64,000 nucleotides of DNA. It comes from Branchiostoma floridae (Eukaryota; Chordata; Leptocardii; Amphioxiformes; Branchiostomatidae). Below the pieces are notes generated by a model. That model ran no database searches and was not told where the DNA came from. It worked only from the letters and a program-made list of their open reading frames with translations. Of the stretch, positions 1,598-50,800 are shown piece after piece. Made by a program: the position numbers and the translations under genes. The first letter of the stretch is position 1, and every line of letters begins with the position of its first letter. The stretch covers positions 7,556,279-7,620,278 of the forward strand of contig NC_049992.1 in the NCBI RefSeq assembly GCF_000003815.2, in the 5' to 3' direction.

Positions 1598-4500
1598 ATG
1601 GCAAGAAGCCTGGCAGAGAAACATCAGGAGTTAGAAACCCTGCTAGAAGCGACGGGAGAAAGTCTTGAGGTAGGGTACGGAAGAGCTATGAGGAACGCCA
1701 TCGCTGAAAATGACACCTGCATGGAGGTGGAGACTCTAAAATGTCTAGGAGACCTTCATCTTGAGAAAGGACAATTAGTCAAAGACTTGAAGGAGTTCAA
1801 GACGGCTTCTACCTTTTACTCAGCTGCCCTACTTCGTTGTAAAGATCCGGATCTAGAACAAGCGATACAAGATCGTACAGCCTTCATGGGAAAACTCGCC
1901 GAAATACTACAACATAAGGACAGCCGAAGTCATAATGTGAACAAGGAGCGGCAGGATACCTTAAGGACAAGTGCCAACGACGTCTTGAGGGTTGCCGAGG
2001 TTTGCCACCAATTGAGTATGGCTCGTTTTGAGGGTTTAAGCGGAATGTATGTCTTGGAAGAGGGTTATACGAAAGCGTTAATACGAGCTATTGCAACAGG
2101 AGATAGGCTACTGGAGATAGAGTTGGTGAAAAATCTGGGAGATTTGTACCTTGAGACAGGGAAGGCATGTGCGGATGAATCCTTGCTGTCCAAAGCGATA
2201 GCGATGTACAACAATGCCAGGGCAAGGTGTGGCGACACAGACGGGAAAGAGGCTCTAACTCACCGTGTTAAGTACACAGAAAGAGTCAAGAGCACAGCGA
2301 TAAGGGTACGTAATGATAACTTGAAGATTTGTGGTATAATTCTCAGTAATCCTGATATTCAAGATAAGGGGAAGACGAGGATGTCTTTATCTGAAATTTT
2401 CCGAAATGTTCTCAAGAGTAACCATGCATAAATCTTTTGTTATCAATAAGTGAAAGTTTATTTGCAAGTTCTTGCCCGAAGGCTAATTGCGACATGAAAC
2501 ATACAGAGAATAAAGTAAACATACGTAAAATAAAATACTTTGGTATAGATAACAATGGTGACAAGTGTAAACAAGTGACTATTCTATCAATGATATGGAG
2601 TGCTGAGAGCTACAATCTACGCATTTGGGGTTTGACTTCTTTTCTGGAAGCAGTGGAAGACGAAGTACCCCACTTTTTCTATGATGAGTGTGACGTTAAC
2701 AGCGTTATAGTTTTGTTTTCGTCAGTAAGCGTTTGGAAATTTTTGTGTGTTTTGCATGCCTCTTCAAATAACTCCTTTCTTTCCTGGTCATTAGAGAGGC
2801 AGTTAGAAATAAAATGTATTTCGTCTTCCACCGGTTTTGCAATACAATGGTTACAGGTTCTTTCGCCCACAGGTAGCTTCTTTATATATCTAGATCCACT
2901 ATAATACTAAGTACACTACACTATTTCCTGTCGTGTTATATAAAATCTATAATGTGAAACACTAAGAACGTTAACATTTCTCTTCCTTTTTGAATAATGG
3001 GAAAGGATGATCATTATTTATTCATTACAATCGCAATTTGAAACATTGTTTCTGTACGTCATTGGATAATATCAAAATTAAATGTAATCTAATCTACTGT
3101 ACAAAAGTTAGAACGTTACAGATGTTTCTATGTCATCCAGCATTATTCGTCAGTGAAATAAAACTGAAGTGGATTTTTCAGCAATCGGACTCATCAGGTT
3201 TTGATTTGATCAAAATATCACAACTCCTTGAAAAGGTCAGTGCATGACACAAATGGCTTTGTTGTTATTTTCATGTTGTTGTTGTTGTTGTTGTTGTTGT
3301 AACGTTGCTAAGATGCGAAGAGGCAGCAACGTCTATGACCATGGTGCTGTGGATGCGGAGGAGAATCCTGATGGTACAGCTATTATGAGGTATGTTATAG
3401 GTAGTAATATAACGCATAATTGTCAAATCCATCATACTATAATTCAGACTTTCTTATTTCATTAAAAACCCTGAGCTCCTATTGGACTAACTTTCAACGT
3501 AATAAGAAATTCCAACTATCAGTACTCCGTGTACTTCCCAGTCTCCTGGTTTAAGCTAAGGGCACAGCCCGCCGTACGTGCAAATACGTGCTGTCTACGT
3601 GCCAAAACGTGGGCAATATTTTGGGATCCGTAAGTGGTAATTACTGCCTCCGTACGAACTCGTAGGGAATCCGACGGATTTTGGAGCACGCAGACACGCC
3701 GTAGAACTTTCACGTGCAGGCAAAACTTTGTGTGCCATCGGGCTGCGGATTGGTACGTGCCAGTACGGGCGACGCGCCTGCCCTGTACAGCCTGAACGTT
3801 TTCAGAAAGACGTAGCGGACGTGGCCTCCCATAAAAACGTACCGACAAATTGCACGTACGGCGGGTTGTGCCCTTAGCTTTAGAGGTGAGCGGCCACCAG
3901 CTCTCAGTGCAGGGGGTCAGAAGATTGTGTAATGACAGGCTACCCAGTAGTCTGAACATCATTGGATGGATGAAATCATAAATATCGTGTCCTTTTATTC
4001 ACAAGGACCTACAGAGAACATCACCGACTTGGAGACCGGGCATTGCGGAAAGGGGCTGTCGACTTAGCGGAGCGACGATTTGCCTCTGCACTGAAGCTTG
4101 TCCATGGTGAGTTGCACTGATTATAGAGTAATGCAACTTGCGTCAAGACATAATTCTAATAGATAATGTATGTAACGTTATATATCATTTTTATGTAAGC
4201 CCAACAAGATTAAGCACGATGTACTATACGATGTACGAAGGGAGAAAAGAATGTGTAGAGGATCAATATGCTGTTGTTGCTGTGTCTTTGTTTTGTGAAA
4301 TGGCCGTTTTTAATGAAGTCAAATAGTTTAAGAAGAGCATTATTTTAAACTGAGGACAGGTAATGCGATAACCTTCGATAACTACTCTCGGTACTTCCTT
4401 GGACCTTTGACCTAGCTTCTTCTTAAAAGAGAGTCGAAATAATTGCCATCGGAAAGTGTGTTATACACTTGTGCGTTTTGATTTAACGTAGGCACGGGTT

Positions 4501-7500
4501 CTGCGCACTTGAACAAAGAGGCAGAGACTTTACAAAAGCTGGGAGATGTCTACCTGGAGCGAGGAAAGGTGACAAAGGACGGGGAAGACTTTACCAAAAG
4601 TGCTGCTCTGTATAACGCATCTATGGCAAGAACAGAAAACAGACAGTCCGCGAAAGATTTAATCTTCGCCATTAAACGTACAGAGGAATCTTTCTTACAA
4701 CATGTGATAGGCGTCTCCTGTGTGGCAAGTCCGTATGAACTGGACCTACGGCACAAGAGTGACCTAAAAGAAATGCGAGACAAGGTAAAACAACAGCTTG
4801 GCTTTATTGATGAGCAGCATGATCCTTTTAAGTACGAAGAGGACGACCCTGAAGTTAGGAAAGCCGAATCTGCTAGAGCTGTAGCCGTCAGAGCTCTCTT
4901 CCAGAAGACAGCTAAGGACAGAAGCACTTTTCTCGACAATCTCGTCTCTGAATGCATTACTGTAATGGGCCCACCACCATGTAGGTATGCAATCATAGGT
5001 TTGGGTTCACAGGCCACAGAGCTGGTTACTCTCTACTCAGACCTGGAGTTTGCGATTCTGCTTGAAGATGGGCGCGACTCCGAAGAAAACAAGATGTACT
5101 TCCGTATTCTCACTCACTTCTTGCACCTGAAAATCATCAATCTCGGAGAGACCATCCTTCCAGCCATGGCAATCAAATCACTCAATGACTTTTACTCCAA
5201 AGACCCTGAAGACAGTTAGTTCTACGACTCCATAACGACGCGCGGACTCGCCTTTGACGGTGCGATGCCCTGGGCGAGCCACACCCCTCTGGGTAGAAAG
5301 CAGACAGAAAACAAACCAGCGCTGGAACTTATACAGACTCCCAGCCAGTTGGCGAAGTTCCAGGAGTCGGATGCAGCCATGTCTGAAGAAGACCACTTGT
5401 CAGATGTTCTACGAAGCGTCTGTCACATAACAGGAGACAAAACTCTCGTTGAACAGTACCGTGTCGAAGTGATGGCAACCCTCAAAAGTAATGCGCTGCA
5501 TGCCAACATGGAATTGGCAAACAGAGAAGAGTTCAGGAACCCAGAGTTAGTGTCCACGCTACTGAACGTTAAAAAGGAGATCTATCGCTTCTCCCGATTG
5601 CTGTGCAGAACATAGCTTTGCGCTGTGGGGTTGGAACGTCCAGCGTGTGGGCAAGCATTGAAGAGCTGGAAGCTGGTGGGTACATAAGCAACCAAAACGC
5701 ACACCACATTGCAGTGCTGGTTGCTATCTCAGCGGAACTTAGACTGAGGACGTACATGGCTAACGGAGGTCAGAAAGAAAACATGTCTGCATTGTTGCGT
5801 TTAAGTAGCAAAAAAGGTCATAGTAAGAAAACAGTCCCTGATCTAGAGAAGGTGTTTTATCTTCCTAATCAAAAGATGCTATACCGGTACTACTACTCCG
5901 CTCTGCCTCTTCGCAGAGCTTTGTCAGAGCTGCAAAAGGAAAACGCGTCGTTTTCACTGGCGTTCAGTCTGTTTGAAACGTCGGAAGGAACGAAAGGAGA
6001 AATGAAGATGAAGCTTTGTGATTTCATATCAGCAAAGGCACTATTTGAACGTGCGCTGGAGAGGAACCAGGCGATCCATGGTAACGGCAAAGGCCATCCT
6101 GACATTGCAGCGTGTTTTAGGAACCTTGGATGGGTCTGTTATAGCATGGGTGAGTACGGTGATGCAAGGGCCTTCCTCCAACAAGCACTGGACATGTATC
6201 ACCGAATACACGGGTCAACCCATCCCGCTATTGCTGCCTCCCTCAGAAGCCTGGGTGCTGTAGCTAGCTGCATGGGAGATTACAAACAAGCGGAAACGCT
6301 TTTCGAACAGGCACTGGAGACACTGAAGCTCCTGCATGGCGATAGTGCGGATCAGGAGGATATTTCTTCAGTTCTTCACAACCTGGGATCAACATGGGCT
6401 GACATGGGCAACAACAGGAAGGCAGTCAGCTTTTATGAAAAGTGTCTGGAGATTAGAAAAAGTCTACACGACTCGAAAACAGCACATCCTGACGTAGCGT
6501 CTGTGCTCAACAGCCTTGGCGCTGCTTGGAACAACCTTGGCGACTACAAAAAGGCGATTGACTTCTATAGACAAGCTCTTATCTTAAGGACGCTTACATA
6601 CGGAGGAGAAACGGTGCATCCGGATATTGTATCATCATTAGGCAACTTGGGTACAGCTTACCTTAACCTCAAGGATCACTCGAAAGCAATCGACTTGTTC
6701 GAGCAAGCTGTACAAATGAACAATCTGCTATATGGACAAGACCACGCACACCCAGAAACTGCCTCGTTAATTGACAATCTAGGCTCAGCCTGGAATAGCA
6801 TTGGTGCTCACAGAAAAGCCCTTAATATCTTCGAAAGAGCCCTACATATGAAACGACGAGTGTATGGAGATTTTGCGGTACATCCAGAGATCGCGACGTC
6901 ATTAGCAAATCTTGGTGAGGTCTGGAGTGATCTTGAAGATCACAGGAAAGCATTAAAGATGTATTCTCAGGCATTAGACATGTATAAAGCTGTATATGGA
7001 CAGGACACTGCACATCCCGGAATCGCGATTACGCTCAACCACTTTGGAGCCGCATGGAGGTGTCTTGGTTTTCCCAGAAAAGCTATTCATTTTTACGAAC
7101 AGGCTTTGCACATGAGGGAGAGGGTCTATGGTCAAAATGCCGCGCACCCAGACATTGCCACGTCACTCAACAATCTTGGGGAAGCTTGGAGTCAGCTTGG
7201 CGATCGCAGGAAAGCTCTCGCTTACATTGAACAGGCTTTGGATACAAGGAAACGTGTTTATGGGTACGATGTAGACCACCCTGACATTGCCGCGACATTC
7301 AACGACTTGGGGGTTGCTTGGAGCATCTTTGGTGATCCCATGAAAGTCATTGTCTTTTACGCACAAGCCTTGAACATGAGGAAACGTCTATATGGACACG
7401 ACAGGGATCATCCGGACATTGCCATGTCTCTCAGTAACTTGGGCACCGCGTGGAGTATTCTAGGCCAGGTTAGGAAAGCACTTCCCTTCTACAAGGATGC

Positions 7501-8851
7501 GCTAGACATGACGATACGTATATACGGAGATACGGCGCATTCGGATATTGCAGGATCGCTGAATAATATAGGTATAGCTTGGGTTAACCTCGGTCAATAC
7601 AGGAAAGCAATCAAATTCTTTGAAAGGGCAATTGCCATGAAGAAGCGGCTCTACAAAAACCGCAACGCATACCCGAAGATTGCAGTATCACTGAATAACC
7701 TTGGTGAAGCCTGGAGTGCGCTAGGTCATCACGGCAGGTCTCTTCTAATACATGAAAATGCTTTACACATGAGGAGATGTACTTACGGACGTGATACCCC
7801 CCACCCACATACGGCTACGTCATTGTACAACCTGGGAAAATCATGGAGTAACCTGGGTGATCACAGAAAAGCCATGATGTTCCACGAGCAAGCACTGAAT
7901 ATGAGAATTCGTATAACTGGAAATAATGAGAGCGCTTCGGACCCAGACATTGCTTCTTCGCTTGAAAGTATGGGTGTTGTGTTGAGTGATATTGGTGACT
8001 ACAGGAAAGCAATAAGCTTCTATGAGAGGGCTTTGAAAATGAGGAACAATGTGTACGGACACGATGCAATACACCCCGGGTTTGCTTCATTATACAACAA
8101 CCTAGGAACAGCATGGAGTCAGTTGGGACATCAGAGGAAAGCAGTTGATTTCCATGAACTTGCCTTGGACATCAGGAGACAAACATATGGCCAAGAGGGG
8201 GCTCACCCCGACATCGCTTCCTCACTCAATAACCTTGGTGCCGCTTGGTGCAATCTGGGTGACTACAGGAAGGCATTGAAGCTGTATGAAGAGGCACTTG
8301 ACATCAGAAGACGGGCGTATGGAACCAAGACAGCTCACCAAGACGTTATTCGGTCACTCGCCAACTTGGGTGCGACGTGGAACTACTTGGGTCGTCCTAA
8401 CAAAGCAATCCTCTGCTACGAAGAGGCGTTGGACATGAGCAGAGCCATTTTTAATGGCGGATTGGCACACCATCAAACAGCGTCTCTACTGCAGAAGCTT
8501 GGGACATCGTGGGGACTTATCGGTGATCACAGCAAGGCAATCAACTTCTTTGAAGAGTCTTTACAGATGCAGAAACGTTTGCGTGGAAACCATTCAGACC
8601 ATCCGGACGTTTGTCTGCTTCTGTCTAATCTAGGGGCGTCTTTGGCAGCTCGGGGTGACTACAGAAAAGCAACTGGCGTTCTACAAGAGGCATTGACGAC
8701 GATGCGCAAAGTCTATGGACACAACGCGGCCCATCCAGATATACTGAGGACGCTGAAGAACCTGAGTATAGCATGGAGAGACATGGGCGATCACGACAAG
8801 GCAGCTGCAATATCGCTACAGGCGGAGGAGATGCAAACTCGACTAAAATAA
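1598..8851 (+). CDS. Large TPR protein with DUF294-like nucleotidyltransferase region; frame disrupted
   Basis: Four exons join in phase: 1598-2305, 3313-3389, 4006-4106 and 4492-8851, with donors GTACGT, GTATGT and GTGAGT and AG acceptors. Ignoring two lesions, the frame runs about 1,748 codons. The first three exons and the start of exon 4 hold three similar helical repeats, each with an LGDxxLExGK core and an ALYNA-type second helix. Exon 4 then has GLGSQATE, followed about ten residues later by YSDLEF. This is the GS...D-x-(D/E) pattern of DUF294/GlnD-type nucleotidyltransferases. The exon ends with 21 TPRs of the kinesin-light-chain/nephrocystin-3 type. Lesions are an in-frame TAG at 5217-5219 and a 1-nt loss near 5592-5596. 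TPRs bind proteins; whether the NTase region is catalytic is unknown. It may be a young pseudogene, a null allele or a sequence with base-call errors. Start chosen at the ATG at 1598, which opens the N-terminal repeat region. Confidence 0.82.
2440..2900 (-). mobile_element. 5'-truncated non-LTR retrotransposon (LINE) 3' end
   Basis: On the minus strand about 60 residues end a retroelement protein with a C-x2-C ... H-F-I-x2-C zinc-knuckle-like pattern (positions about 2870-2790). Downstream lies a 3' end, read in reverse as a conserved tail ending near 2455. The same tail occurs at 42180-42220 and, diverged, near 32890 and 46020-46065. It sits in intron 1 of the TPR gene in antisense. A dead 5'-truncated copy is the simplest reading. 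Confidence 0.6.
3272..3300 (+). repeat. (TTG)n microsatellite
   Basis: Nine or so TTG/GTT units lie immediately upstream of the exon 2 acceptor of the TPR gene, so they form its pyrimidine/G-rich 3' splice region. Confidence 0.9.
3552..3882. mobile_element. MITE with ~30-bp terminal inverted repeats (family X)
   Basis: The left end reads AAGCTAAGGGCACAGCCCGC and the right end is its near-perfect inverse (…GGGTTGTGCCCTTAGCTT). TTA-like bases flank both ends, which would fit a PIF/Harbinger-type target duplication, but I cannot confirm it. The element is 331 bp, non-coding, and lies in intron 2 of the TPR gene about 120 bp before exon 3. A second copy forms the frame of the composite element at 25098-27869. 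Confidence 0.8.
6024..8848 (+). repeat. In-gene array of 21 tetratricopeptide repeats
   Basis: The translation repeats a unit of about 47 residues, usually HPDIAxSLxNLGxAWxxLGD followed by a YRKAIxFYEQALxMRxRVYG-type helix. I counted 21 units from about 6091 to the stop, with one preceding half unit. Unit length and the HPDIA signature match kinesin-light-chain and nephrocystin-3-like TPRs, longer than the 34-residue canonical TPR because of the inter-helix loop. The array is entirely in one exon, which suits expansion by unequal exchange. No stop or frame change occurs inside the array, unlike the region just before it. Confidence 0.9.
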
Positions 8852-9658: not shown

Positions 9659-12600
9659 TAGAAAATGAAAACACCCACAGCAAATGAAAATACACACAGA
9701 AAGAAAATCAAATTTGAATACAAAGCAAAAGATAGGAAAAACGTCTTTGTACTTCTGGGCCACCGTATGAATATCTATCTACTAGTAGTATATAGATTTA
9801 TTTAAGATAACAGGAAGGCCGGCTGATTTATCAGAAGCGACATTACAAACGACTGTGCAAAGCGCCCCTTGTCGTCTGCACATTACCTTGACAACCCATT
9901 TCTGCTCCTCAGACGGTCCGTCGTCACCGCGCACGTGTGTGCACTTTGCCGTGATGACGTCAGACCTATCCCATGATGCCTGCAGACAAAAGTCCCCACT
10001 GACGTCACGTATTTCCTGCGCATGCGTCACTTCCCAGTACTAGTGGGGAATGGAGTTCACCATTATGACAGTTACAATGGCAATGATTTTATTACATATT
10101 CCTGCCCAACATGGGCTAAATGCATCGAGTTTGACAACTTAAGTATACATGAAAGAGGTTACATCTGATATTACTAAATTCTACAGAGTCTCTTTTCTTT
10201 TTTTAAAACTTCTGTAAAAAAATTTACAAAGCTTTTCCAGCGCGTTGTACTCATTAGTCGACATAGTGTAGTTGAACATTTCGCATATTCATGATCTAGT
10301 TGTTGTGTACTTATGAGAGCTCTATGCATCTCTGTGTATAGTGGGCATTCTAAAAGAAAATGTACTTCATTCTCTACACATGTGTCGTTGCAAAATGCAC
10401 ACGTTTGGAGGAGACTGGTTGTGTCTTCCAACTTTAATTTAGAAAAACAGGTGCTTGATCTCCTCCAGATACTTTGTTTTCGCTCACCTCTTTATATTTT
10501 CTGTATCTCTTACATGATATTTTGCCACATGTCTATGTGATATCTATTTCAATTTACGGCACATATTTGCTGATTCTGCAGCAGCTTTGTACTATTTTTA
10601 GTCTGGTCGAAAACGATTTGAAACGGCCGAAAAGTGATGCGCGCGTGAATGCCATCCATATAAAGAAATGAACATGGCCTGAGCATACCTGGGTACCGCC
10701 CTTCCCGTGGCAGGGGAACACCCCTGCTGGCTCCTTCCCAGCCTTGATGACGTCCAGACACAGGCCCGTTTGTTCGTTGGAGATCTGCGGGGAAGACGTT
10801 ATGCATACAATAAACATAGGGTAAAAAACGAAATAAGTCATTTTATAATCAGATTTCAATTTGAATCTGCTTAAAGCCACATAGATAAAAGTCTAATTGG
10901 GGTTTGATTACTTTCATATCAATAATGACATGTACACAGTCGATCGTCATCATAGCCTACATATATACCTTTTCATACATACAAACATGTATTTGGGTTG
11001 TACTAATGAAACATTTTTTTTATGGGAGTGAAGGTAGCATGGTAATGAAGACTGCAAGTTACATGTAAGCTGCCTCACAATTCCAAGTGCGCATGTGCAT
11101 TCGTTATATATTGTAGTCTAGGTCAAAGTTCAAGATCCCTTGGCCTGTGAACAGATCCTTAACTGTTATCCGTTTCCCAACAGCCACCACTTCGGAAATG
11201 GTCGTAAGCAGGCTGAACACGCACGGCTGTATACAAGGCAATAATTTCAGAACACAGTTTTTCGGGTATGGGGATTTACATGGTTAAGGACCCCAAAGTG
11301 AGGTGGTTCGACGACTCAAAACCTATAGTAGGGTGCAGATACAATTCACAAGAATTTAGTATGTTGAAGTTGAGGGTACAAGCTACAAAATATCTGAAGA
11401 TGAGCATAGATTTGCCGGCTCGTTTTTCTATAACAGACACTTTGATTTGACCCCCAGCGGAGGTCATGGAACTGCAGGCGGCGAACAGGAAGTGCCGGTA
11501 ACATATCAAGGCGCAAATTCCCGCCGGCCGAAAAAGCGATGTAATCCAACTTATACAGTATGAACGCCGATGTATTCCTCTACTATTCACCACAGATTCC
11601 ACCTCGCTGTCGTGCACGGAAGAATAAATACGGCCTTTGCAAGTACCGCGATGCACTATTTTAACCCGAACTACTTTTGGGGACGGGGGTCGCGGATAAT
11701 TACTGTGTTATGAGACCTTAAGCCAACTTGACCTTGGATTTCTTTACGTTCATACAATAAAACTAGTCAAGATACAAAACCGTACCAAATTTTAGAGCAG
11801 AAATCCAAATGGTTCCTGAGATATGGCCAACTTTGCACTTTGGCGCCTAGCACAGGTGTCGGCACTGTACAAGGACTATCTGAGGGGCCGCCAATTGGTC
11901 TCATTATCTCAACAAACTTGATATTCTGGTTGACTTTTTCTGTTATAAGGAGCTTGCCAGACCACATTCTACCGTTCTGAGTGATTGGGGTTGGGGGTTT
12001 GTCTTTTTTAGGGCGGAAAAAGGGGGGGGGGGAGTCGAGCGGGCTTTAGACCGCACTAAGTCCTATACTTAAGCATAGGGAACGGTCTAGGCGGCCGTTG
12101 CCATGGTAACGGCGGGTCAGACGGTAACAAAAATGTTACAGTTCAAGTCAGCCGAGGTCAATTACCAACATATCGGTCAAATTTAATGTGCTTGTCCGTC
12201 CCTGGGGAATTCACGCTGTGGATGAAGGTCTCAGAACACAGTTTTTCGGGTATGGGGATTTACATGGTTAAGGACCCCAAAGTGAGGTGGTTCGACGACT
12301 CAAAACCTATAGTAGGGTGCAGATACAATTCACAAGAATTTAGTATGTTGAAGTTGAGGGTACAAGCTACAAAATATCTGAAGATGAGCATAGATTTGCC
12401 GGCTCGTTTTTCTATAACAGACACTTTGATTTGACCCCCAGCGGAGGTCATGGAACTGCAGGCGGCGAACAGGAAGTGCCGGTAACATATCAAGGCGCAA
12501 ATTCCCGCCGGCCGAAAAAGCGATGTAATCCAACTTATACAGTATGAACGCCGATGTATTCCTCTACTATTCACCACAGATTCCACCTCGCTGTCGTGCA

Positions 12601-15600
12601 CGGAAGAATAAATACGGCCTTTGCAAGTACCGCGATGCACTATTTTAACCCGAACTACTTTTGGGGACGGGGGTCGCGGATAATTACTGTGTTATGAGAC
12701 CACAAGTCAACAGACCTTTAACTTTGACTTGGACCACAATGCATCTCGACTGCGCATGCGCACTTGGGACGTATTGTGGGATCACGCCTGACGTAATTTA
12801 TCAAGCCATACCTGATTGGCCAAATATCCGGGTCATACACGGTTGTAACTGAACATGTAAATAAGTGAAGTCACGTGACTTACCTGCCCATGTGCGATTG
12901 GTTGGATGTCTGGGACGTACAAAGTGGGGAACACGTGACTCAGGTACCAGCTGAAGTCCCGACAGTGAAGACCTTTCCTCAGAAGCTTCCGCTGCGTCAC
13001 GTCTCCCATGTCATACTAGTTAAAGGTTCAAACAATGTAGTTTTAGCCATTTAGGTTATCACTTCCAACAAGTGAACATATCATTAAATTTTTACATGAG
13101 TTCAAGGTCTCATCTTTCCAAGGAGCTTAACCGCCTTGATCTTTCAGACATCCACATGCTTTCGACATCATGTTACAAAAATGAGTGATGATGCCCCCTG
13201 AGATATTTTTGTTCACTTAGGCAGACTTGCGGCAACAGTACGTCTACACTAATGTGAGAATGTCAGGGTGAGTATGTTGCTTTTCCCTCCTACTGTATTT
13301 CCATAAATATAGTCTCGTAACTGTGTAACTGTTGATAGTAAAGGCCTCTGTCATTCGCACATGCGTAAGAGCTTTTTCTAGGACTGGTATGTGTATATAT
13401 TTTTGCATTATTCCGACTTTTATTTAACCTTGAAAATTACATCTCTTTGGCCTTGACCATTTCTCAAGAGTTCAAGAGCTGAGGAGGTCAGGAGATATCA
13501 CACACAGTTGTTAACAATGATACATTCAAATTTTCCATAATCATATTTAGTAATGTAAACAGATCATTAACATCATATCAGTCCATACTCCATTATTTTA
13601 GTCAGTCCGTGGCCACTTGCTGCAACGTGAATTACAACTCATCGGTATAGCCTCCATGGCAGGCTCTCTGATGCCTTTTTTTGGCTCATGATACACTTTT
13701 GCTGGTCATTTTGAGGCCGGCAGCCAGATAAGGCCAGCAATCAGCGACCCAGTATAGAATGAAATGGCCATCAAAAGTGTATTATGAGCCAAAAAAGGCA
13801 CCAGAGTCTCTGAGAGCCTGTTATGGAGGCTATCATAGGTAGGTGAAGTTCGAAAAATGAATTGACTAGAACCTTTCTATATTCGGGGTGTTTCCTGTAG
13901 TAGATCTCCTTGTAGTCGTCCATCCACACCTCTGCCATGCGCCTGTTGTTATGCACCAACTTCTTCCAGGCATCTCCGGTCGAGTAGGGTGACGTGGGTC
14001 TGAACACGTGACCCACGTGAGAGCACGGCAGGACCACGATGGTTCCGCCACACTGCCAGATCTGTCATGGAATGATTTTGATTTTGCGGATGACATTTTT
14101 GGAGCCACGTACTACCACATGGCGGGGGGGGGGGTCTCATCTGGTTTAGGTAAGGGAGTTCTTTTGATAATAAACTACAGCCCGGCCTCCTGATTGGGTC
14201 AGTCTTGAGAGAAATGCAGAATTTCTGAACCTCGTCCGTGTGTCTCAGTAATTTGACACCTTACATTTGGTGGCAGAGGTGGGATCCCCCTAATCTAAAC
14301 CAGATGAGCTTTTCTCCAAATATGATGGGACATATCTGATAAGATCATCAACTATGGATCCACATCTTCTTTGATAGTGAAAAAATGATGTCGTTTTGTG
14401 ATCGTTATATCGCCACAACTACACATACAGCGTTTGTGGACGGATATGAAAATCAGGAATCAAGCTGATCAGCCACAGTAGAACAAATACGGACAGCTAT
14501 CAGTGATGTCATTGTTGGCACCGACGGACTGCTCTAAGCAAGTATGCACAAACCGACTGGCAACCCCACATTTAACACTATTAAGCACTCAATTTTGTGT
14601 AAAAACAATCTGTGGCAATTTGGTTCCGTTTACCCGGAAGTAAAAGAACAAATGACGTCACTTTACCCGGAAGGACATCTCTATGTTCTCCCCGCCCCAG
14701 ACCTCCATGCCTGTGTCGTATGCACCCAGGTACTCGAAGTACTTCTTGTTTATCGAGAAAATTCCTCCGGCCATGGTTGGAGACCTGTAGAAATACTGAG
14801 AGATTATCGAAAGGACTACGAGACTTAGAGAGGACTAAGAGATTAAGGACTAAGAGATTAAGCTCGATCACCATTCCGAGTAAGCATGCGGAGCGACGAG
14901 AATTTAGAGTAACATATGATAGGTAGCGGTCCCTGAGATGTAAACAAAACACATCTGGACATTGCTATGCGAATCGAGATAATCGTCGAGACGAGAACGG
15001 TTTAAACTTTGGGGGACTTCGCTTTTGATTTACTACCCACAACTCCTTATGCTGCTCATGCGAACTAAGAATGGTGAACGAGCTTATTCAACTTGAGTGG
15101 GCCGCTATCTGTATTTTGCTTGTGTATGTTTGTTCAATAAAAAGGCCATTAAAATTTAGAAAACGTTTCGCCGCAAGGTTATCTTCGGCACCCAGTATTA
15201 GTTTTACGTAGTATAAGTTGATCTGTCTCTTAAAACTACTACCAGGTCCAAACGATGACCCGGACGGCGGAGACCTGTTTCTGCTCCGAAGAGATTCCTG
15301 CCATCCCGCGGTAATAATAAGGTGGACGATATGTTAGGTAACACCTCCATAGAATCCAGACTTTACCTGATGGGATCTACAGGAGATTTTCGCCGTCTTC
15401 GCTCGTGCTCAGGAATCGGCTCCCATATGAAGGTGAGTTCTTTGAAGTTGATCCCGCCCATCTGTGTACTCTGTGGAGTAAGAAACGACGGTAAATAATA
15501 AAACAAACAAAGAAACAAACAAACAAACATACGATATTGAGAAGGATTTTGGGAGGATAAAAAGTGGTTGCTGTGATTGAAAGTGTTCTACATATCAATA

Positions 15601-24100: not shown

Positions 24101-27100
24101 ATGACCTTATCAAAATGTAGAGGTTATACTTCATGTTCTACAGAACGATTTATCTTTCAATTATACTAATTACTCTGATCTTTACTGTAACAATCAGTAA
24201 CAGAATAAATTTCATGTGTCAACTTGTTATTATGTTTATTGCTTTTACGGGAAAGTTTACCGTAATGTTGTAAGGTGAACTCTCTTGAACAACTATTTCA
24301 ACATCATAAAATTAGGGTTATCAGTTATCACAGTCTCTATCGTTCTTTGGACCTTTAGATCCAGCTGGACCTGTCGGGCCTCCTGGACCTCCAGGAAAAA
24401 CGGGACCAGCCTACCCAAATGGAACCTCGATGTGTTTGAGACCAGCTGAAACACCAGAACCTCTTCAAACATCAGCACAATTTGAGTCGAATGAAGGTAA
24501 CACGACCATTCTCTTTTGTTCCATGCTCCTACGCAGAGGGACCACAGTCGTGTCGAAACTCCCTGTGGTCACCTCTGCTGTTTGGTGCACTCAGATCAGT
24601 TACTGACGCCCTGCTTATACTAAATATTAATGAAGTTACCCTTATATGAGCCGTTGGGATCGGGCGCAGGAGGATGGAGCTATGTAAGACGTAACATGAT
24701 TTGCTGATAGCGGTCTTTACGAGATGGCTTTCGTAAACAGAAAGCCCAACAAAGGCCTATTCTCTGATTGGCTGACAGCTGGTTTGTGGTGACGCTCACA
24801 GTAACTGCTGGTGGGCCTCCAGACAGCAGGGCCCCAATAGGCAGTTGGCTAGCCGTTGGGGACCGTGCGTAGGAGGATTTTGTTCATACAAATCAATCAT
24901 TTTAGGGTAAAGTTACATGTACAACCAAATTGGTTTTTAGTTGTTCAGTTGTTTACCTGGTTTCTAAGCTTTATGACTGCTTTTTCTTATCATTGTATTA
25001 TCCCGGGCGATGGTCGGAAATGGCCTTCAGTCTCACCAACTCAGGAACACACCGCCAGCCACCACTGGATAAAAACTCGGTTGATTTTTTCCTAAGCTAA
25101 AGCTAAGGGCACAACCCACCGTACGTGCAAATACGTGCTGTCTACGTGCAAAAACGTGGGCAATCTTTTGGGATCCGTAAGTGGTAAGTACCGCCTCCGT
25201 ACGAGCTCGTAAGGAATACGACGGATTTTGGAGCACGTAGACATGCAAGCCGAAGAACTTTACGTTCTGGCGAAACTTTTTGTGTCATCAGGCTAGCCGG
25301 CTGTGGATTCGCCCCCATACGTGCCAGTACGGGCGACGCGCCTGCCCTGCACAGCTAGAACGTTTTCAGAAATACGTGGCGGACGTGGCCTCCCAATAAA
25401 ACGTACCGACAAATTGCACGTACGTAGCTGTAGAGGTGAGCGGCCACCAGCTCTCGGTGCAGGGTGTCAGAAGATTGTGTAATTACAGGACCATCAGAGA
25501 TCATTTTGTCCTTGAAGTTAAAAATCGCTTTGATGCTCTCTCTGACCCAACAGACGACATAGAAACGACATATAACAACCTTGTCAAGGCCAACGAAGAT
25601 GTGTCACTCACAACCCTACCCAAGAGGGAGAAAAGGAAAACCACACCTTTTAGCCTGCACAAACAAGTCTCGGCCGCACGCAAGAAAGTGACGGAAGTTA
25701 CAAAACTCCATGAGAAAAGACCAACAAGACTTTCCCTTAAGAAAGTTACTAAAGCACAAAGAGAGCTAGATATCGCCTACGCTAGTGCTCAAGCAGAATA
25801 CATCAAAGGGAAAATAGACAAAATTAGCCTCCTGCATGCAACTAGACAATATGAAGCAGCATGGAAAACAATTAATGAACTCAGTGGACGGAAAGCCCAA
25901 CCTACAAGCAAGATAAAAGGAGGATCCCAAGAAAACAGGAAGGCCAACTGGCTCTCACACTTCAAGTCCTTACTTGGAGAAGTTCCCAAGTTACCACCTA
26001 ACCAACCGTTAAGAAGGATACAGGTGTCTGAAGAGCTTAATATATCAACTGAGCCCTTCTCACTAGAAGAACTTGAAGCCGCACTGGACTCTTTCTCTAA
26101 CAACAAATCCCCTGGACTTGACAACATCCCTACCATAATATGGAAGGATCCGGTATTCCATGATTTGCTTCTTCACCTGTGTAACAACACCTTCCTTACA
26201 CACAAACCTCCTTCTGCCTGGCTCAAAGGTGGTATTATTCCAGTACCCAAGAAAGGAGATTTGACTTCAGTTGCAAACTACCGTGGGATCACTCTTACTC
26301 CTATAGCTGCCAAGGTTTACAACAAGTTGCTACTTAACCGTCTAGTTCCTGCAGTAGACCCACTCTTAAGAAAGAACCAGAACGGCTTCCGAAGAGGTAG
26401 ATCCACCATAGCACAAATACTCTCCATCCGCAGAATAATAGAGGAAATGAGAAGATGCGACAGAAATCTTGTACTACTGTTTGTCGATTTCCGAAAGGCC
26501 TTCGACTCCATAGACAGAAACATTATGTTTGAGATACTTAGTCTGTATGGAATACCATTACCCATCGTCAGTGCAATCAAGGCACTATATACGAACACCA
26601 CTGCTACTGTGATAACTCCCGATGGTGAAACAAGCCCGTTTGAGGTCACAGCCGGTGTCCTGCAAGGAGACACATTAGCACCTTTTCTTTTCATCATAGT
26701 GCTTGACTATGTACTACGTCTCTCATTGGACAGCATGCAGGAAAAGGGTATAGAAATTCAACCTAGAAGAAGCAGTCGCCACTTAGCTGTGAATCTTACA
26801 GACCTAGATTTTGCAGACGATCTAGCACTGTTAACACACCTAGTCAAGGATGCTGAAGATCTTCTGCAGTCTCTCGAGAAAGCAGCGGCCCAAGTTGGAC
26901 TCTATTGTAATGCAGCAAAAACTGAATTCATAAAAACAAGTACAAGTATTACTATTGCACCAACTGATCTCAAATCCCTATCTGGAACTTGCCTAAAAGA
27001 AGTCGAGGACTTTAAGTATCTCGGGTCTTACATTATGAACTCAGAAAAGGACTTAAGCATTAGGAAAGCCATGGCCTGGAATGCTTGTAACAAACTGGAT

Positions 27101-28578
27101 AAGATCTGGCGCTCCAGCATAAACAACAAACTTAAGGTACAAGTCTTCCGCGCAGTAATAGAGCCCATTCTCCTGTATGGTGCTGAAACTTGGACCTTAA
27201 CAACTCGTCTGGAGAGGAAACTTGATGGTACGTACACACTACTCCTGCGCAAAGCACAGAACATTTGTTGGAAGCAGCACCCATCCATAAGGGACATTTA
27301 TGGAGATCTCCCGAGGGTCTCTCACAGACTCAGACAGAGACGGGCACAGTTTGCTGGACACTGCCTTCGGGCTAGTGAAGAGGTAGTTTCCTCACTCCTC
27401 TTGTGGAGGCCTCGAGGAAAAACTCACTCCCGGAAGCTGACCTTCCCGAGACTGCTTTCCAGGGATACCGGGCTAGCGGAGGAGGACCTGGCAGCGGTCA
27501 TGTCAGACAGGAAGGCGTGGGCTGAAGTAGTGCATGGACTTACCCCGTCCCCTCCGGGGGTCGACTAGGCAAGGCAAGGCAATTACAGGCTACTCAGTAG
27601 TCTGAACATCATTGGATGGATGAAATCGGACAAATAGTTTGTTCTTTACTTCATCAGGATCTACAGCGAACATCACCGACTTGGAGACCGGGCATTGAGG
27701 AAAACTTTGTGTGCCATCGTGCTGCGGATTCGCCCCCGTATACGTGCCAGTACGGGTGACGCACCTGCCCTGTACAGCCTGAACGTTTTCAGAAATACGT
27801 GGCGGACGTGGCCTCCTAAAAAAACATGCGGACAAATTGCACGTACGGCCGTTTGTACCCTTAGCTTTAGACACAATCATGAGCTACTTTGTCTACGTCT
27901 TCCACTTTCTTGCCGTCTTCTGTCCTCTGGGAGGACCTGTCTCTGCTCTATTTCCAAGAAATTTCTCAAATAATGACCAGTGACTTAAAGATTTCTAAAC
28001 ACCAGAAAAAGACATCTAGAAAAGAGCGTATCCGTATCATCTAGAGGGGCGATGTTGCAAATGCAAAGCATGCTTTCAATGTCACATTGTTTTGAGAGTT
28101 GAGGTCCACATCGTCCATCCCTATATGTATGATTGTTGTCAACGTTCACTTTTTTCTAGTTTCTTGTCCCAAAGGTTATTCGAATCTACGTGGAGCCTGC
28201 TACAAAGCGTTCAACACCTTGGTGAACTTCGGGGACGCTATCCTGCACTGTCGTCTGGATGGTGGTACACTCGCCATGCCCCGGGACCCGGCCACCAACG
28301 ACTTCCTCATCTCCCTCAAAAACCACGTCAACCCCAATGCCCGCTTCTGGATTGGACTGCACGACCAGCGAAGGGAAGGACACTTCGAGTGGATGGATGG
28401 AGTTGCACTTGGAAGGTACAAGCCGTGGGATTCACATCAACCAGATGATGCTAAAGACAAGGAGGACTGCGTTCAATACTTTATGTACACTGAGTCCCGC
28501 TTTGGAGCAAACAAGTGGAATGATGCTGACTGCAATGATCCATTTCCCTTCATATGCCAGGTGACTCCAGATGCCTGA
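21112..28578 (+). CDS. Type II membrane C-type lectin with short collagen segment (lectin A)
   Basis: Six exons: 21112-21160, 22119-22214, 23270-23383, 23975-24058, 24359-24496 and 28160-28578. Every intron is phase 1, the pattern of shuffled extracellular modules. The 299-residue product has a cytoplasmic head, a membrane span (IPFVLVVIVVFVALLAG) after a Cys-Leu-Ser-Lys-Lys stop, a short coiled-coil-like exon (28 residues), and a collagen piece of only five or six Gly-X-Y triplets ([15 protein letters not shown]). A C-type lectin domain follows. The domain has SCPKGY and ACYKAF (extra N-terminal disulfide), WIGL, QPD, WND and four core cysteines. QPD with WND is the calcium/galactose-type binding pair in this family, so galactose or GalNAc binding is likely. 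It probably works as a cell-surface pattern receptor. The last intron holds the composite mobile element at 25098-27869. Confidence 0.9.
21655..22095. mobile_element. Inverted-repeat element interrupted by assembly gap
   Basis: Left arm CAGTCTTCGAACGGGGCTGG is mirrored on the right by CCAGCCCCGTTCGAAGACTG, with flanking TAGACTCC and GGAGTCTA also inverted. A G homopolymer of at least 18 precedes the gap. It lies in intron 1 of lectin A. Confidence 0.75.
21723..21981. other. Assembly gap (259 N)
   Basis: The gap sits between the arms of an inverted repeat and right after a G homopolymer, both of which block sequencing. No coding exon is expected to be lost, because exons 1 and 2 on either side join in phase. 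Confidence 0.95.
22265..22441. mobile_element. MITE with TACAGTAGAAGCC termini
   Basis: Begins TACAGTAGAAGCCGCTTTAT and ends with the inverse (…AACTGGCTTCTACTGTA); TA at both ends fits a Tc1/mariner-type TA target. 177 bp, non-coding, in intron 2 of lectin A. Confidence 0.75.
25489..27568 (+). CDS. LINE reverse transcriptase (ORF2 C-terminal part)
   Basis: An uninterrupted frame of about 690 codons encodes the region between endonuclease and RT, the RT domain and the C-terminus. RT motifs: YRGITLTPIAAKVYNKLLLNR (block 1), NGFRRGRSTIAQI, LLFVDFRKAFDSID (block A aspartate), GVLQGDTLAPFLFI (block B), DLDFADDLALL (block C, the catalytic DD), AAKTEF and, later, LLYGAETWTL. It copies element RNA at the nick. 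No EN domain is present, so it cannot move by itself. The open frame through the left junction is accidental: upstream codons belong to the captured TPR fragment. No frameshift or stop is seen, which argues for a recent insertion. Clade not assigned. Confidence 0.92.
25489..27580 (+). mobile_element. 5'-truncated LINE insertion with perfect target-site duplication
   Basis: AATTACAG at 25481-25488 is repeated exactly at 27581-27588; the unoccupied TPR-gene copy has AATGACAG there. The 3' end closes with short tandem AAGGC units (GGCAAGGCAAGGC) rather than poly-A, as in several LINE clades. The 5' end starts inside the coding region, so the endonuclease part is missing. Confidence 0.88.
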
Positions 28579-31117: not shown

Positions 31118-34100
31118 TTATGAAGTATCTGGAGTCACTTGGCATATGAAGAGATAAGGAATGCTGCAGTCTGCGTCATTCCACGTATTTGCCCCCCAAT
31201 TGGTATCCATGGAGCTGAAATAGTGGACACAGTCCTCCCCCCAATGCCGATCATCTGGTTGCTTTGCGCCCCACGACTTGTATCTCCGAAGGCCAAGTAG
31301 TCTACCATCCATCCACTCGAAGCGTCCTTCCCTGCGCCGGTCGTGCAGGCCAAACCAGAAGCAGGACTCGGAGTTGACGTGGTTTTTGAGAGAGATGAGG
31401 AATTCGTTGGTGGCCGGGTCCCGGGGCATGGCGAGTGTACCACCATCCAGACGACAGTGCAGGGTAGCGTCCCCGAAGTTCGCCGGGGTGTTGAACGCCT
31501 TGTAGTAGATTCCACGCCGCCACGCATAACCTTTCAGAAAAGATGTTAGCAACAAAGTTTGAGTATTGCTAAGTAAGACTAGAAATGCAACATTTTTGCT
31601 GAAATGCAGAATGTTTTTTCCATAGCCTTTTGTCAAGCCACTCGCACACAGTACTGTGTCATTTAGGCTCGGTCTGTAATATTGTGTGAGATTAGAAAAT
31701 ATATCTATATCTACTTGGTTTTTAAACCAGGTCATTATAATAATTATACTATACCGCCAGGCTCACCCTATAGTATTGCGTTCATATTTGCAACAACAGC
31801 TAATATATAACCTAAGCTCTGATTGACTACTGATTGCTAACATTTGCAACAACAGCTAATATCTAACCTAAGCTCTGATTGGCTACTGACAGCAGAAGAA
31901 AGAAAAACACACCAGCAAAAACAATATGTACACATGTATTTCCCTCCCGATGAAAACATGATAAGACATAATAAGCAACGTTTCCCTTCTGGGTGATCTT
32001 AATTCTTGAATTTCTTCAATTCTTTACTTAGAGACACATGAAATGATAAAAAAGATGAATCATAAAAAACTTCGACAAGAGATAAAACACCATATCATCA
32101 AATGTTATAATTGTACTCTACATCGTGTGCTCATGATAAAAAACTTACCTTTATCCGACATGAACCGTGCGGCACTTTGGCGATGTTGGCGTGGTCCGAC
32201 AGGTTCCAGACACATGCTGTTGGAGCCGGGTGGGCCCACGGATCCCGCCAATGCTTTGGGGCCCATGCGTCCACGGGGTCCATGGGCCCCACGAGGTCCA
32301 GGAGGCCCGGCAATCCCTGGCCCATCCGGCTCTGTGGGAACACGGGCTCCACAAGGTCCAGGTGGACCGGCCATTCGATGGGGACCCATGGGTCCACGGG
32401 CTCCTCGGGGTCCAGGAGGTCCAGGAAGTCCGGGAAACCCTGTCCCATCCGGCCCCATGGGTCCCCTTTCTCCTGGAAGTCCAGGAGGCCCGGGAAATCC
32501 AGGTCGAGCTGGCCCCATGGGTCCCCTTTCTCCTGGAGGTCCAGGAGGCCCGGGAAACCCAGGTCCAGCTACACCCACGGGTCCCCTTTCTCCGGGAGGT
32601 CCAGGGGGACCGGGAGTTCCGGCAGACCGAGGGCCTGCTGGGCCCATGGAGCCCTTCTCTCCCGGAGGTCCAGGAGGCCCCACAGACACAGGGCCAGCCG
32701 GCCCCATGGGTCCCCTTTCTCCTGGAGGTCCAGGAAACCCAGGCTCTCCTGGCCCCATGGGCCCCTTTTGTCCTGGGTTACCAGGAATCCCTGGTAAACC
32801 AGGGGGACCTGGGGGACCAGGTGGTCCCAGACTCCCCAAAGAGGCCGGAGACACACCAGTTCCTGAAAGACGATAGATTTGGTGTTTATAATGATAATCT
32901 TTATGGCATATTCATGCCCGAGGGCTAAATGCACAAAAGGACCACATGTGGTCTTATGGATGCAGAGGAAAAACTTAACTTATACAATGATTTTAAACTA
33001 GGCTAAATGGAAAAGTAACTAATACACTATGTGTTACAATCTCTAATGGCTGCATCTAGTATGTTCTTCTCTCTTTTTGAAACACATGGAGGCATATTTA
33101 CATATTGCGTCAATAGCATAATCGTCCTTGCATGACATCAACTATTTAAACAAGTCTTGTTTTGACATTTTCTTACAGTTATTGTCTATTTGTAAAGTAT
33201 TAAATAGGGATTGGCGTTCGTATTCATATAATGTACACTCTAGTAAAAATGTGTCTCGTCTTCAAGATACAAGTGGTCACAGAATTTATATGTTCTATCA
33301 TTTAAAGGAGTACGGTTATGCTTGCCGGATTCTATATGTAACGGATGGTCACTTATGCGAAATTTACACATAGCTGTGCGATGTTCAAAGCTTGAGATGC
33401 TAAGGTATTAAAGTTTCTCTTTCATATGTCTCTTTATAAAACACACAGTAACGTACAAACTATACATACATCACAGGGAATTCTTATAAAAAGCACTGTG
33501 AATGTGGCAAAAGCGTAAGATGTCACTCTCTTTATTTTCATGGTCTAGCTAGAATTATCACTGTACAATATCAGTAGCCTCTACNNNNNNNNNNNNNNNN
33601 NNNNNNNNNNNNNNNNNNNNNNNNNNNNNNNNNNNNNNNNNNNNNNNNNNNNNNNNNNNNNNNNNNNNNNNNNNNNNNNNNNNNNNNNNNNNNNNNNNNN
33701 NNNNNNNNNNNNNNNNNNNNNNNNGGTAGAGGCTACAATATCAGGGCACACGGTAAACACGATACTTACGGTAAAGTTCCGTGTGAAGTAGCTCCGCCAG
33801 TCTGTCCTTTGACGTAAGCTTGGCCATCTCATCAGAAAGTGCCATCACCTTAGCTGTGTTCAAACAAGAAGAAAAATGTATGTCATCGTGTTCTGTAGGT
33901 GGAGGGACCGGAATTCTTTTTTCTGCCACTCGACCTGAATGTTGATTTCTTTTTCTTTTTCTTAGCGAAATATGTCACAAATATAAAATTCCTTTTATAA
34001 TATCTGCCACTGACACATAATGAACTTCATTTGCATAATTGATTGTCAATTTTATATTCAAATACAAAATTCCCGTTATTTAGCACTGTTGTAGCAATAT

Positions 34101-47800: not shown

Positions 47801-50800
47801 TAAATGTAACGTTTTGTTTACAAAATTTTATCCAGAATGAGGCAAGATTAAAGTTTACAGCATTGTTCTGTTCCTAAGGCTAACTAATTCTCTTAATTGT
47901 TACGGACGGCTTTCGAATACGTAATACGTAATACGATTTTACTTCTGAATCAGTTTGCTTCGTTCCATTTCGCACTAGTGTTCTGTACATTCCATTCGGT
48001 TAAGTCCGTTTCATTTGACATTTTATATACACCGCAGATATCGCGTGATGTAGGAAGCCGCAATTTGTTGATACTGGAAACGACAGCGAGGAGACATTTC
48101 GTTCCATTTCGAACTTTCTGTAAATTCTATTCCACTTCATTGCGATTCATTTTGTATTTTCTGTCCACCGCTGAGATCGTGTGATGTAGGAAGCCGCAAT
48201 TTGTTGATACTGGAAACGACAGCGAGGAGAAAAGATCAATGGAGCCCATTATAGAGCCTTCCCGTGGGAGCCGGCGGAAGGAAAATATTAATTTCGAGGT
48301 GTGGAAACGAGATTCCTCAGCGTAGAAATGGTAGGAGCGGATTAAAACAGCGTGGATTGGTCTTACAGAGGCCGCATGGGCCCGAGTGAGGGGGTTTTCT
48401 TCATCGGATATGCAGTCACATATAGGTCGTGCGATCGTCGTACGGGTCGTACTAACTACGGGAATTTTGGAGGACAAAAAACGTACGTCTCCTGCAACGT
48501 CCAGCTGTCTTGGTACACAAATTGCTGTTTTGGATCCATGTCGGTGGTTGGTTCTGTCACCGCCTTCTTGAAAATCATATGGCATCAAAATCGTGCGACG
48601 ATCGCACGACCTATGTGACTGCGCCGGAACGAGATTCCTCAGCGTTAGAAATGGTAGGAGGGGATTAAAACGGCGTGGTTTGGTTTCACAGAGGCTGTAT
48701 GGGCCCGGGTGAGGGGTTTTTCTTCATCGGATATGCAGTCACAGATAGGTCGTGCGATCGTCGTACGATCGCTAACTTCGAGCATTTTGGGGGGCAAAAA
48801 CGTCCCCTGCAAAGCTCAACTGTCTTGGTACACAAATTTCTGTTTTGGACCTATGTCAGTGGTTGTTTCAGTGTCACAGCCTTCTTGAAAATCCTATGGC
48901 ATCAAAATCGTACGACGGTCGTGCGACCTATGTGACTGCGCCGGAACGAGATTCCTCAGCGAAAGAAAAGGTAGGAGGGCATTAAAACAGTGTGGTTTGG
49001 TTTTACAGAGGCTGTATGGGCCCGGGTGAGGGTTTTTTCTTCATCGGATATGCAGTCACATATAGGTAGTGCGATCGTCGTACGATCGCTAACTTCGAGC
49101 ATTTTTCGGGGCAAAAACGTCCCCTGCAAAGCTCAACTGTCTTGGTACACAAATTTCTGTTTTGGACCTATGTCAACCTGTTTCAGTGTCACAGCCTTCT
49201 TGAAAATCCTATGGCATCAAAATCGTACGACGGTCGTGCGACCTATGTGACTGCGCCCAGACGAGATTCCTCAGCGTAAGAATGGTAGGAGGAGATTAAA
49301 ACAGCGGTGTTTGGGCTCACAGAGGCGGTATGGGCCCGGGTGAGGGGTTTTCTTCATCAGATACATGGAGAGTTCTGGTCTTCTTTTATCGTTATTGATA
49401 GGCTGTTAGCTGGCTTCATCGATTGGTGTTAACGGTAATCCCTACAATTGGATCTAGAATAACACTGTGTGGAGCTTAATGAAATAACCATACATATCCA
49501 TTATCCAACATCAATTCAAAATCTTCAAAATCAAAATAAAGAAACACTACAAAGATACGGACTGCATTGCAACAATACATAATGATATAACATAAACTAT
49601 AGCCATGAAATATCAAGATAAAACAAAACAAACCATTTTGCAAGACTGGCGACTCTGAAGCCCTATGTAATAAAATTGCTTGCTTATGGAGGTTTCACTG
49701 ATGTAAAACATGAATGTAACGTTAACTGAATCCCGAATGTAACTGAATCGTTTACATATCTTTAACAACACAATTATGCTTGATGTAGTTCCCCATTGTA
49801 AAAACTACGCAACATTACACTATTATCTGTGGCTTACATTTCAGAATTGTCGATCAGTAAGGCTAACCGTTAAAATTTTTATGACCCGTGTCAGCCTGTC
49901 ATCCATTGTATTCAATAATCTCCACGCAGATTATTACCGGTGCCATAACATAGTATCAAAGCTGCTTGCCAAGGAGTATAGCCGGCCAAAGGGAGTCAGA
50001 CGGGCACCTTTCTTCGAGCCGACTGATCGCAGATTCCCAGCTAGAGCCCGGCTGACTCCCTTTGGCCGGCTATACTCCTTGACCAGCTTTGATACTATCT
50101 TATGACACCGGTAAATCTGTCTGGAGATTATTGAATTCAGTTGACTTCATTGTCTGGTTGACTGATTTAATCCAAGTATGTAGGATGTAACATGGATGGA
50201 ATTTTGCGATCCAACGTATGAGTACGGCTGTTAAATATATAGTTGGCCACAGCCTGACCGAAGGCGAAGTGTGTCCGTTATTTCCGTGCCCTTGTGGTCA
50301 TTTAATCACAGAATGTTTAAGAACGGTGAAAGATTACTAATCCATAGGTTTGCCCGCTAGATGTGACTGAAAAATTCAACAGAATTTAATACATGTAACG
50401 CGTTTCCCTGTCCTTGCCGTATCATTTATAACGATATTTTCCAAATACTGCCATCATGTTCAACTCATATATCCACATACGTAGGTCAGTTTCTTTATAC
50501 TGTATTCCAAATGCGAGACCAGATCACTCATATATGACTGTACTGTTATCGATGATATTGTGTTGTTTTGTATGTAGCCTCGTAGTACTGTTGTCTATAT
50601 AGCTATTAGTTGTTATTGGTTGCCATAAATTGTCCCATTTGCGATAGTTGAACAATAAAATTCATTTATTTATCGAATTGTTACCATTACCTTGCCAAGT
50701 CAGTGATAAATTCTCAAAGATAAGTTATACATTCGTAATGGTTTGTTATTTTCATACTTTCGTTAGTCTACTTATCAATTGTTATATATCCACGTGTTGT

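Follow-up and report, generated by a model that had tools for sequence, protein, structure and literature searches.

A composite element at positions 25101-27866 of a 64,000-nucleotide stretch of the Branchiostoma floridae genome (contig NC_049992.1, positions 7,556,279 to 7,620,278; hereafter the window) very probably represents a captured gene fragment framed by the ends of a terminal inverted repeat (TIR) element. The fragment corresponds to an intron-exon piece of a tetratricopeptide (TPR) gene located 21.5 kb away in the same window, and the frame is formed by a family of miniature inverted-repeat transposable elements (MITEs), here called family X. We favor, at a probability of roughly 55%, the interpretation that the composite is a single-copy Pack-TIR, i.e., a Pack-MITE-like transduplication, made through template switching. 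A first-pass annotation of the window had described a TIR element carrying a host intron-exon piece at 25098..27869, and BLAST and boundary mapping bore out this anatomy almost to the base.

Structure of the composite element

Base-level boundary mapping placed family X MITE sequence at both ends of the composite. The outer left TIR (25101-25128, plus strand) and the outer right TIR (27839-27866, minus strand) confirm the family X frame with inverted outer ends that had been annotated; in the BLAST comparison, 25097-25130 and 27837-27870 were mutually inverted at 30 of 34 bases. Three within-window BLAST matches link the composite to the parent locus: 25100-25489 to 3553-3939 (84%, E 5.6e-128), 27581-27703 to 3931-4051 (87%, E 8.9e-37), and 27701-27871 to 3722-3884 (87%, E 2.5e-56). 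This search found no homology between the composite and the parent locus beyond the outer TIRs.

Alignments and boundary mapping resolved the following parts, all read on the plus strand. The left MITE copy (YL, 25101-25429) is near full length, and its inner 3' TIR is short by 14 bp. The first part of the captured piece (25430-25489) begins with GTA, whereas the parent has TTA (3880-3882) at this MITE-intron junction, and continues as host intron. The stretch homologous to the parent locus thus has its left limit at the TIR and extends over the MITE-intron junction of the parent, the altered copy of the target duplication included. The second part of the captured piece (27590-27703) contains the intron end, the splice acceptor and 46 bp of exon. 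At the right junction, the captured exon passes into the 3' half of a family X MITE (YR, 27701-27866; from consensus position about 169, as located by BLAST and alignment to the consensus), and the triplet AAA (27701-27703) is common to both sides. Boundary mapping gave TAA (25098-25100) and TTA (27867-27869) as the left and right flanks of the composite.

The two parts of the captured piece are separated by a non-LTR (long terminal repeat) retrotransposon (25490-27580, plus strand), which is the youngest layer of the composite. It is bounded by a perfect 9-bp target duplication, AATTACAGG; the first copy (25481-25489) ends the first captured part, and boundary mapping placed the second at 27581-27589 (plus strand). 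The only Pfam family matched at E<0.001 was RVT_1 (E 6e-31); the reverse transcriptase frame was free of stops over the 688 residues examined, and the tail is an AAGGC repeat. Since no endonuclease domain was found in the Pfam search at this threshold, the retrotransposon is probably 5'-truncated.

The parent locus and the direction of copying

The parent MITE (3554-3879, plus strand) lies in an intron of the TPR gene and was recognized from the location of its TIRs and from its similarity to the family X consensus, from which it differs at 9 of 330 bases. Boundary mapping showed it to be flanked by TTA target-site duplications at 3551-3553 and 3880-3882 (plus strand). Directly adjoining is the parent of the captured piece (3883-4051, plus strand; BLAST and alignments), composed of 123 bp of intron (3883-4005, including the acceptor AG at 4004-4005) and the first 46 bp of the exon (4006-4051). 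The first-pass annotation had matched the captured piece to 3883-4045; the match and its acceptor stand, but the piece runs on to 4051, and the earlier figure of 40 bp of exon arose because a mismatch at 4046 ended the match. Between 3885-4045 and the captured copy, there are 15 mismatches in 161 aligned bases and one 2-base gap. This corresponds to an identity of 146/161 (90.7%) without gaps; gapped BLAST alignments gave 95% and 87% for the first and second pieces.

The host exon (4006-4106, plus strand) encodes the TPR-like segment TYREHHRLGDRALRKGAVDLAERRFASALKLVH, as judged from its translation and from its peptide relatives genome-wide. When joined to the next exon it matched Pfam TPR models weakly, with scores short of the curated cut-offs (TPR_12, E 0.00047), and 17 TPR_10 stretches were detected by Pfam in the frame 5573-8848 of the same gene. 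The number 3 given to this exon in the first-pass annotation is tentative: the acceptor of the exon requires two bases from the upstream exon, but the four donor-like sites in the 1589-2431 frame each leave one.

Whole-genome searches covered 513 Mb in 431 contigs. With 3885-4106 as query, three candidates yielded three matches: the parent and the two halves in the composite. Other copies with the same internal junctions, for which the first-pass annotation had proposed a search, were therefore not found anywhere in the genome; the DNA search skips very common words, and the single-copy result is strong, not absolute. With the 34-residue exon peptide as query, the best 150 of 237 candidates gave 150 matches, among them at least 40 other loci at E<0.001; none of these contained stops, and 39 of 40 spanned at least 32 of the 34 residues. 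Because the peptide has these 40 other genomic relatives, the captured exon is, judged from sequence, an old host exon, and copying ran from the gene to the MITE. The annotated direction of transfer is upheld by these genome-wide relatives of the exon, together with the presence of the captured DNA at the parent locus and in the composite only.

A weak match to the TPR exon (E 0.0074; C2:32261710-32261808) has a further family X MITE (C2:32260391-32260727) at a distance of about 1 kb; this is another place where a comparable capture could begin.

Family X

Exact matches to the 28-bp family X TIR occur 506 times in the genome (259 forward, 247 reverse); the control gave none. Of 2609 first-look candidates, 40 were scored; the consensus and alignment comprise the 39 best-scoring copies besides the parent MITE. 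To these 39 best-scoring copies, 27 of 60 ends from the exact-TIR list were added for the analysis of target duplications (n=66); the remaining 33 were dropped, as the partner TIR was absent within the set limits.

The target duplication of PIF/Harbinger elements has the sequence TWA. In family X, the 3 bp just outside the TIRs agree in 36 of 66 copies, compared to 24.1 expected by random pairing (P=0.00045), and 35 of these 36 concordant triplets are TAA or TTA. Among the 51 copies flanked by TWA on both sides, 16 combine TAA at one end with TTA at the opposite end, which is more than would be expected for a clean 3-bp duplication. A 3-bp target duplication is the pattern described for PIF/Harbinger (PMC2572040). 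Family X thus appears to share the 3-bp TWA duplication of PIF/Harbinger elements; the assignment is provisional because no transposase could be linked to its TIRs. Family X TIRs were present within 1.5 kb of none of the 30 best of 114 matches to DDE_Tnp_4 transposase, so that the autonomous element envisaged in the first-pass annotation did not turn up in this set.

The parent MITE is flanked by TTA on both sides, the composite by TAA and TTA. The matched target-site duplication sought at the outer ends of the composite was thus absent, and a scan of other offsets and lengths produced nothing convincing. Since the composite resembles the 16 of 51 TWA-flanked copies described above, its outer ends are compatible with an ordinary insertion without demonstrating one.

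For 60 further family X ends, the partner TIR was found at 300-380 bp in 29 and at other distances in 17; in 14, there was none within 1.9 kb. No clear host capture was seen in the BLAST picture of these 60 ends, whose interiors were not searched. Several relatives of family X have unusual structures. In two (L111 and L129), the terminal 56-66 bp are tandemly repeated two or three times at one end. Another (L085) is 511 bp long and has about 220 bp of interior without a match to the consensus; it could be a second capture or a member of a divergent subfamily. A fourth copy (L089) is interrupted by an insert of about 780 bp whose ends appear mutually inverted. Exact family X TIRs were absent from viral and prokaryote collections, as expected, and a search of published papers for the TIR string returned no paper related by title.

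Relationship among the MITE copies

The left MITE part differs from the 39-copy consensus at 28 of 322 bases, a value raised in part by misalignment around the 14-bp deletion, and the right part at 13 of 170. The 39 best-scoring copies are biased toward low divergence (2.4-6.2%); in the TIR-selected sample, 21 full-size copies had a median divergence of 6.3% (3.1-36.4%), and by this measure neither the left MITE part (8.7%) nor the right one (7.6%) is unusual. Dating the capture from raw divergence was dropped: the captured piece (15/161) and the left MITE (39/318, from an alignment that misplaces its deleted 3' TIR) were indistinguishable (Fisher P 0.36).

Column 311, near the 3' end of the alignment, carries C in the parent MITE and in the left MITE part; among the 39 aligned copies the base is G in 38 and A in one, and the right MITE part has G. 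Among 99 family X loci, the motif had G 58 times and C once, and the exact C motif occurs at ten places in the genome, the parent and the composite among them. We infer that the 3' end of the left part was copied from the MITE in the TPR gene, early in the life of these copies. The suggestion in the first-pass annotation that the MITE beside the captured stretch provided the pick-up route gains support here, in that the composite retains both the 3' intron junction of the parent MITE and its rare C at column 311.

Origin of the composite

In the template-switch interpretation, a break or stalled replication fork within a MITE resident at 25.1 kb would have been repaired by homology, through strand invasion, off the MITE in the TPR gene. 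Synthesis would have continued about 170 bp beyond the 3' end of the parent MITE, through the intron and into the exon, and would have returned to MITE sequence at the 3-bp overlap AAA. The 14 bp of the inner TIR would have been lost during or after the capture, and the retrotransposon would have divided the captured piece later. Gap filling of this kind accounts for the composite in one event. According to the main text of a survey of animal genomes, single-copy Pack-TIRs are biased toward a location in cis and have internal breakpoints and short overlaps (PMC8277862); the location in cis, the single copy and the breakpoint inside a MITE agree with this gap-filling pattern.

Several observations weigh against template switching. 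The AAA overlap is barely beyond chance (0.050), and the distance to the parent exceeds the under-15 kb bin that, in the survey's main text, holds 160 of 281 cases (PMC8277862). The loss of 14 bp from the inner TIR would be incidental to a template switch, whereas it is expected if two insertions had fused. The left MITE part lacks some nine further variants that the parent MITE carries, one of them an 8-bp deletion; this fits a late strand switch and, equally, a later origin of those variants. Furthermore, no more than one weak variant (column 221, present in 2 of 39 copies) is common to the left and right MITE parts; a second, at column 333, falls in the misaligned deletion. Had both parts come from a single resident MITE, they should have private changes in common, except if that MITE was young.

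The strongest competitor is a fusion of neighboring insertions, as in the Pack-CACTA model, to which we assign a smaller but considerable likelihood. Some allele of the TPR gene would once have contained two family X MITEs, the second a short way downstream of the first; the inner ends, i.e., 14 bp of the 3' TIR of the first and the 5' half of the second, would have been lost, and a transposase would have moved the composite over the 21.5 kb. Catoni 2019 is reportedly cited for the origin of plant Pack-TYPE elements from such fusions. The anatomy predicted by this model is present: the two inner ends are damaged in complementary ways, the outer TIRs are in place, and host DNA lies in between. 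It explains the loss of the inner TIR better than gap filling does, and it is consistent with the few variants shared between the MITE halves and with the PIF/Harbinger-like target duplication of family X. Formation of Pack-TYPE elements through fusion has been described (PMC8903248; also the review PMC13317346), and the former's account includes PIF examples from maize and deletions and mutations at internal TIRs. However, the model requires that an unobserved allele had a second MITE in or beside a coding exon, as well as a joining deletion, a transposition, and the loss of the donor allele, which are more steps than gap filling needs. The whole-genome search found no second copy of the composite, and the outer triplets do not match, though the same is true for 16 of the 51 TWA-flanked family X copies.

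A plain segmental duplication of 3553-4051 followed by insertion of a MITE is improbable. The first-pass annotation had held this explanation in reserve for the case of unique junctions and outer ends lacking target duplications, and the single copy, its proximity to the parent and the unmatched triplets would suit it. Nevertheless it fits worse, because the left homology stops at the TIR and the right MITE end is not followed by parent sequence; nor was there homology outside of the outer TIRs.

Even less probable is an end bypass, in which the transposase used the left TIR of the parent MITE together with a TIR-like end downstream. The left MITE and its flank are contiguous, as in the parent, but the right end is half a MITE, and the parent locus in the window has no family X match downstream of the exon. 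The reverse flow, with the start of the TPR-gene exon derived from the element as an exonized transposable element (TE), is the least probable: the MITE-flank junction is present at both loci, but the exon peptide has its many stop-free relatives elsewhere in the genome, and no other MITE was found to contain the captured DNA.

Comparison with known gene-capturing elements

The first-pass annotation considered such captures rarely described in invertebrate deuterostomes. This may hold for that group, but not for animals as a whole: 370 Pack-TIRs were reported in 100 animal genomes (PMC8277862, Tan et al. 2021), in a survey whose main text does not mention amphioxus, Branchiostoma or lancelet. 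As defined in that text, a Pack-TIR has non-TE sequence between two parts of TIR elements from the same family, and the composite has this structure. Like the surveyed elements, it has host DNA between TIR-element ends, a single copy, a location in cis, a breakpoint inside the element and a short junction overlap.

Measured against the filters given there, the composite retains 28-bp TIRs at both outer ends (at least 10 bp of each terminus was demanded) and has a single unambiguous parental copy, all three genome matches being accounted for by the parent and the composite. Its identity lies just above the 90% threshold when calculated without gaps (90.7%), and on either side of it in the two gapped BLAST pieces (95% and 87%). 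Parents lying within 100 bp of a TE were left out of the survey, whereas here a MITE of the same family (3554-3879) abuts the parent; this is a filter for detection that lies outside the definition, and the text concedes that cases with TEs linked to parents may be missed (PMC8277862). The internal length falls outside 80-120% of the parental length because of the later 2.1-kb retrotransposon, which would break this filter also. With one copy and flanks of TAA and TTA, the composite does not qualify as a mobile multi-copy Pack-MITE. Its transposition as a unit is unproven, since the flanks differ and no second copy was found.

Plant Pack-TYPE elements, as presented in PMC8903248, resemble the composite in the order element-host DNA-element and in their damaged inner ends, and include PIF-type examples; they differ in occurring in plants and in clusters of copies, while a single copy is seen here and movement as a unit is unproven. 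The description of Turmoil-1 from C. elegans in PMC2572040 provides a Harbinger-type animal element that captured two exons and an intron with the 3' splice site retained. In contrast to the composite, its captured genes lie within the long inverted terminal repeats of an element with its own transposase, and eight further fragments are listed. MITEs are known from amphioxus, one of them in a gained intron (PMC5802833). We found no amphioxus Pack element in the open-licence literature on amphioxus MITEs, Pack elements and gene capture. As far as these searches go, the kind of event is known in animals and plants, and this specimen is new.

The case is well resolved in that parent, carrier family and junctions can all be seen, as can an insertion that came later. 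It shows how an intronic MITE can act as a bridge for copying flanking coding DNA elsewhere, in a configuration omitted from the main animal survey. We consider it possible, though doubtful, that capture anchored by a same-family MITE beside the parent gene is a frequent route in animal genomes rich in MITEs, and one that the survey removed by its design. If so, counts of animal Pack-TIRs would be underestimates, and lancelets would be suited to measuring MITE-anchored capture.

Possible function and neighboring features

The composite is probably without function. A C-type lectin exon (Lectin_C, E 4.5e-22) lies about 290 bp downstream of the composite. The captured acceptor is in sense orientation to this exon, and exonization in the neighboring gene was considered. 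A donor scan found no donor above the cut-off of 6 between the captured acceptor and the end of the element; an internal exon within the element is therefore unlikely.

The C-type lectin exons at 28148-28572 (plus strand) and 31127-31558 (minus strand) are inverted relative to one another, 79% identical, and adjoin collagen-like repeats (32258-32803); similar repeats also occur at about 24361-24407. Elsewhere in the window, a direct duplication of about 490 bp (11247-11735 and 12231-12718) is 99% identical, and a tandem array at 48306-49363 consists of 3.3 copies of a 317-bp unit. A precursor of mir-2060, a microRNA family of lancelet origin that, like the expanded TPR genes, points to an amphioxus (Rfam RF03662, 75.3 bits; 57878-57971, plus strand), is located inside a tandem array (57738-58051) with units of about 92 bp.

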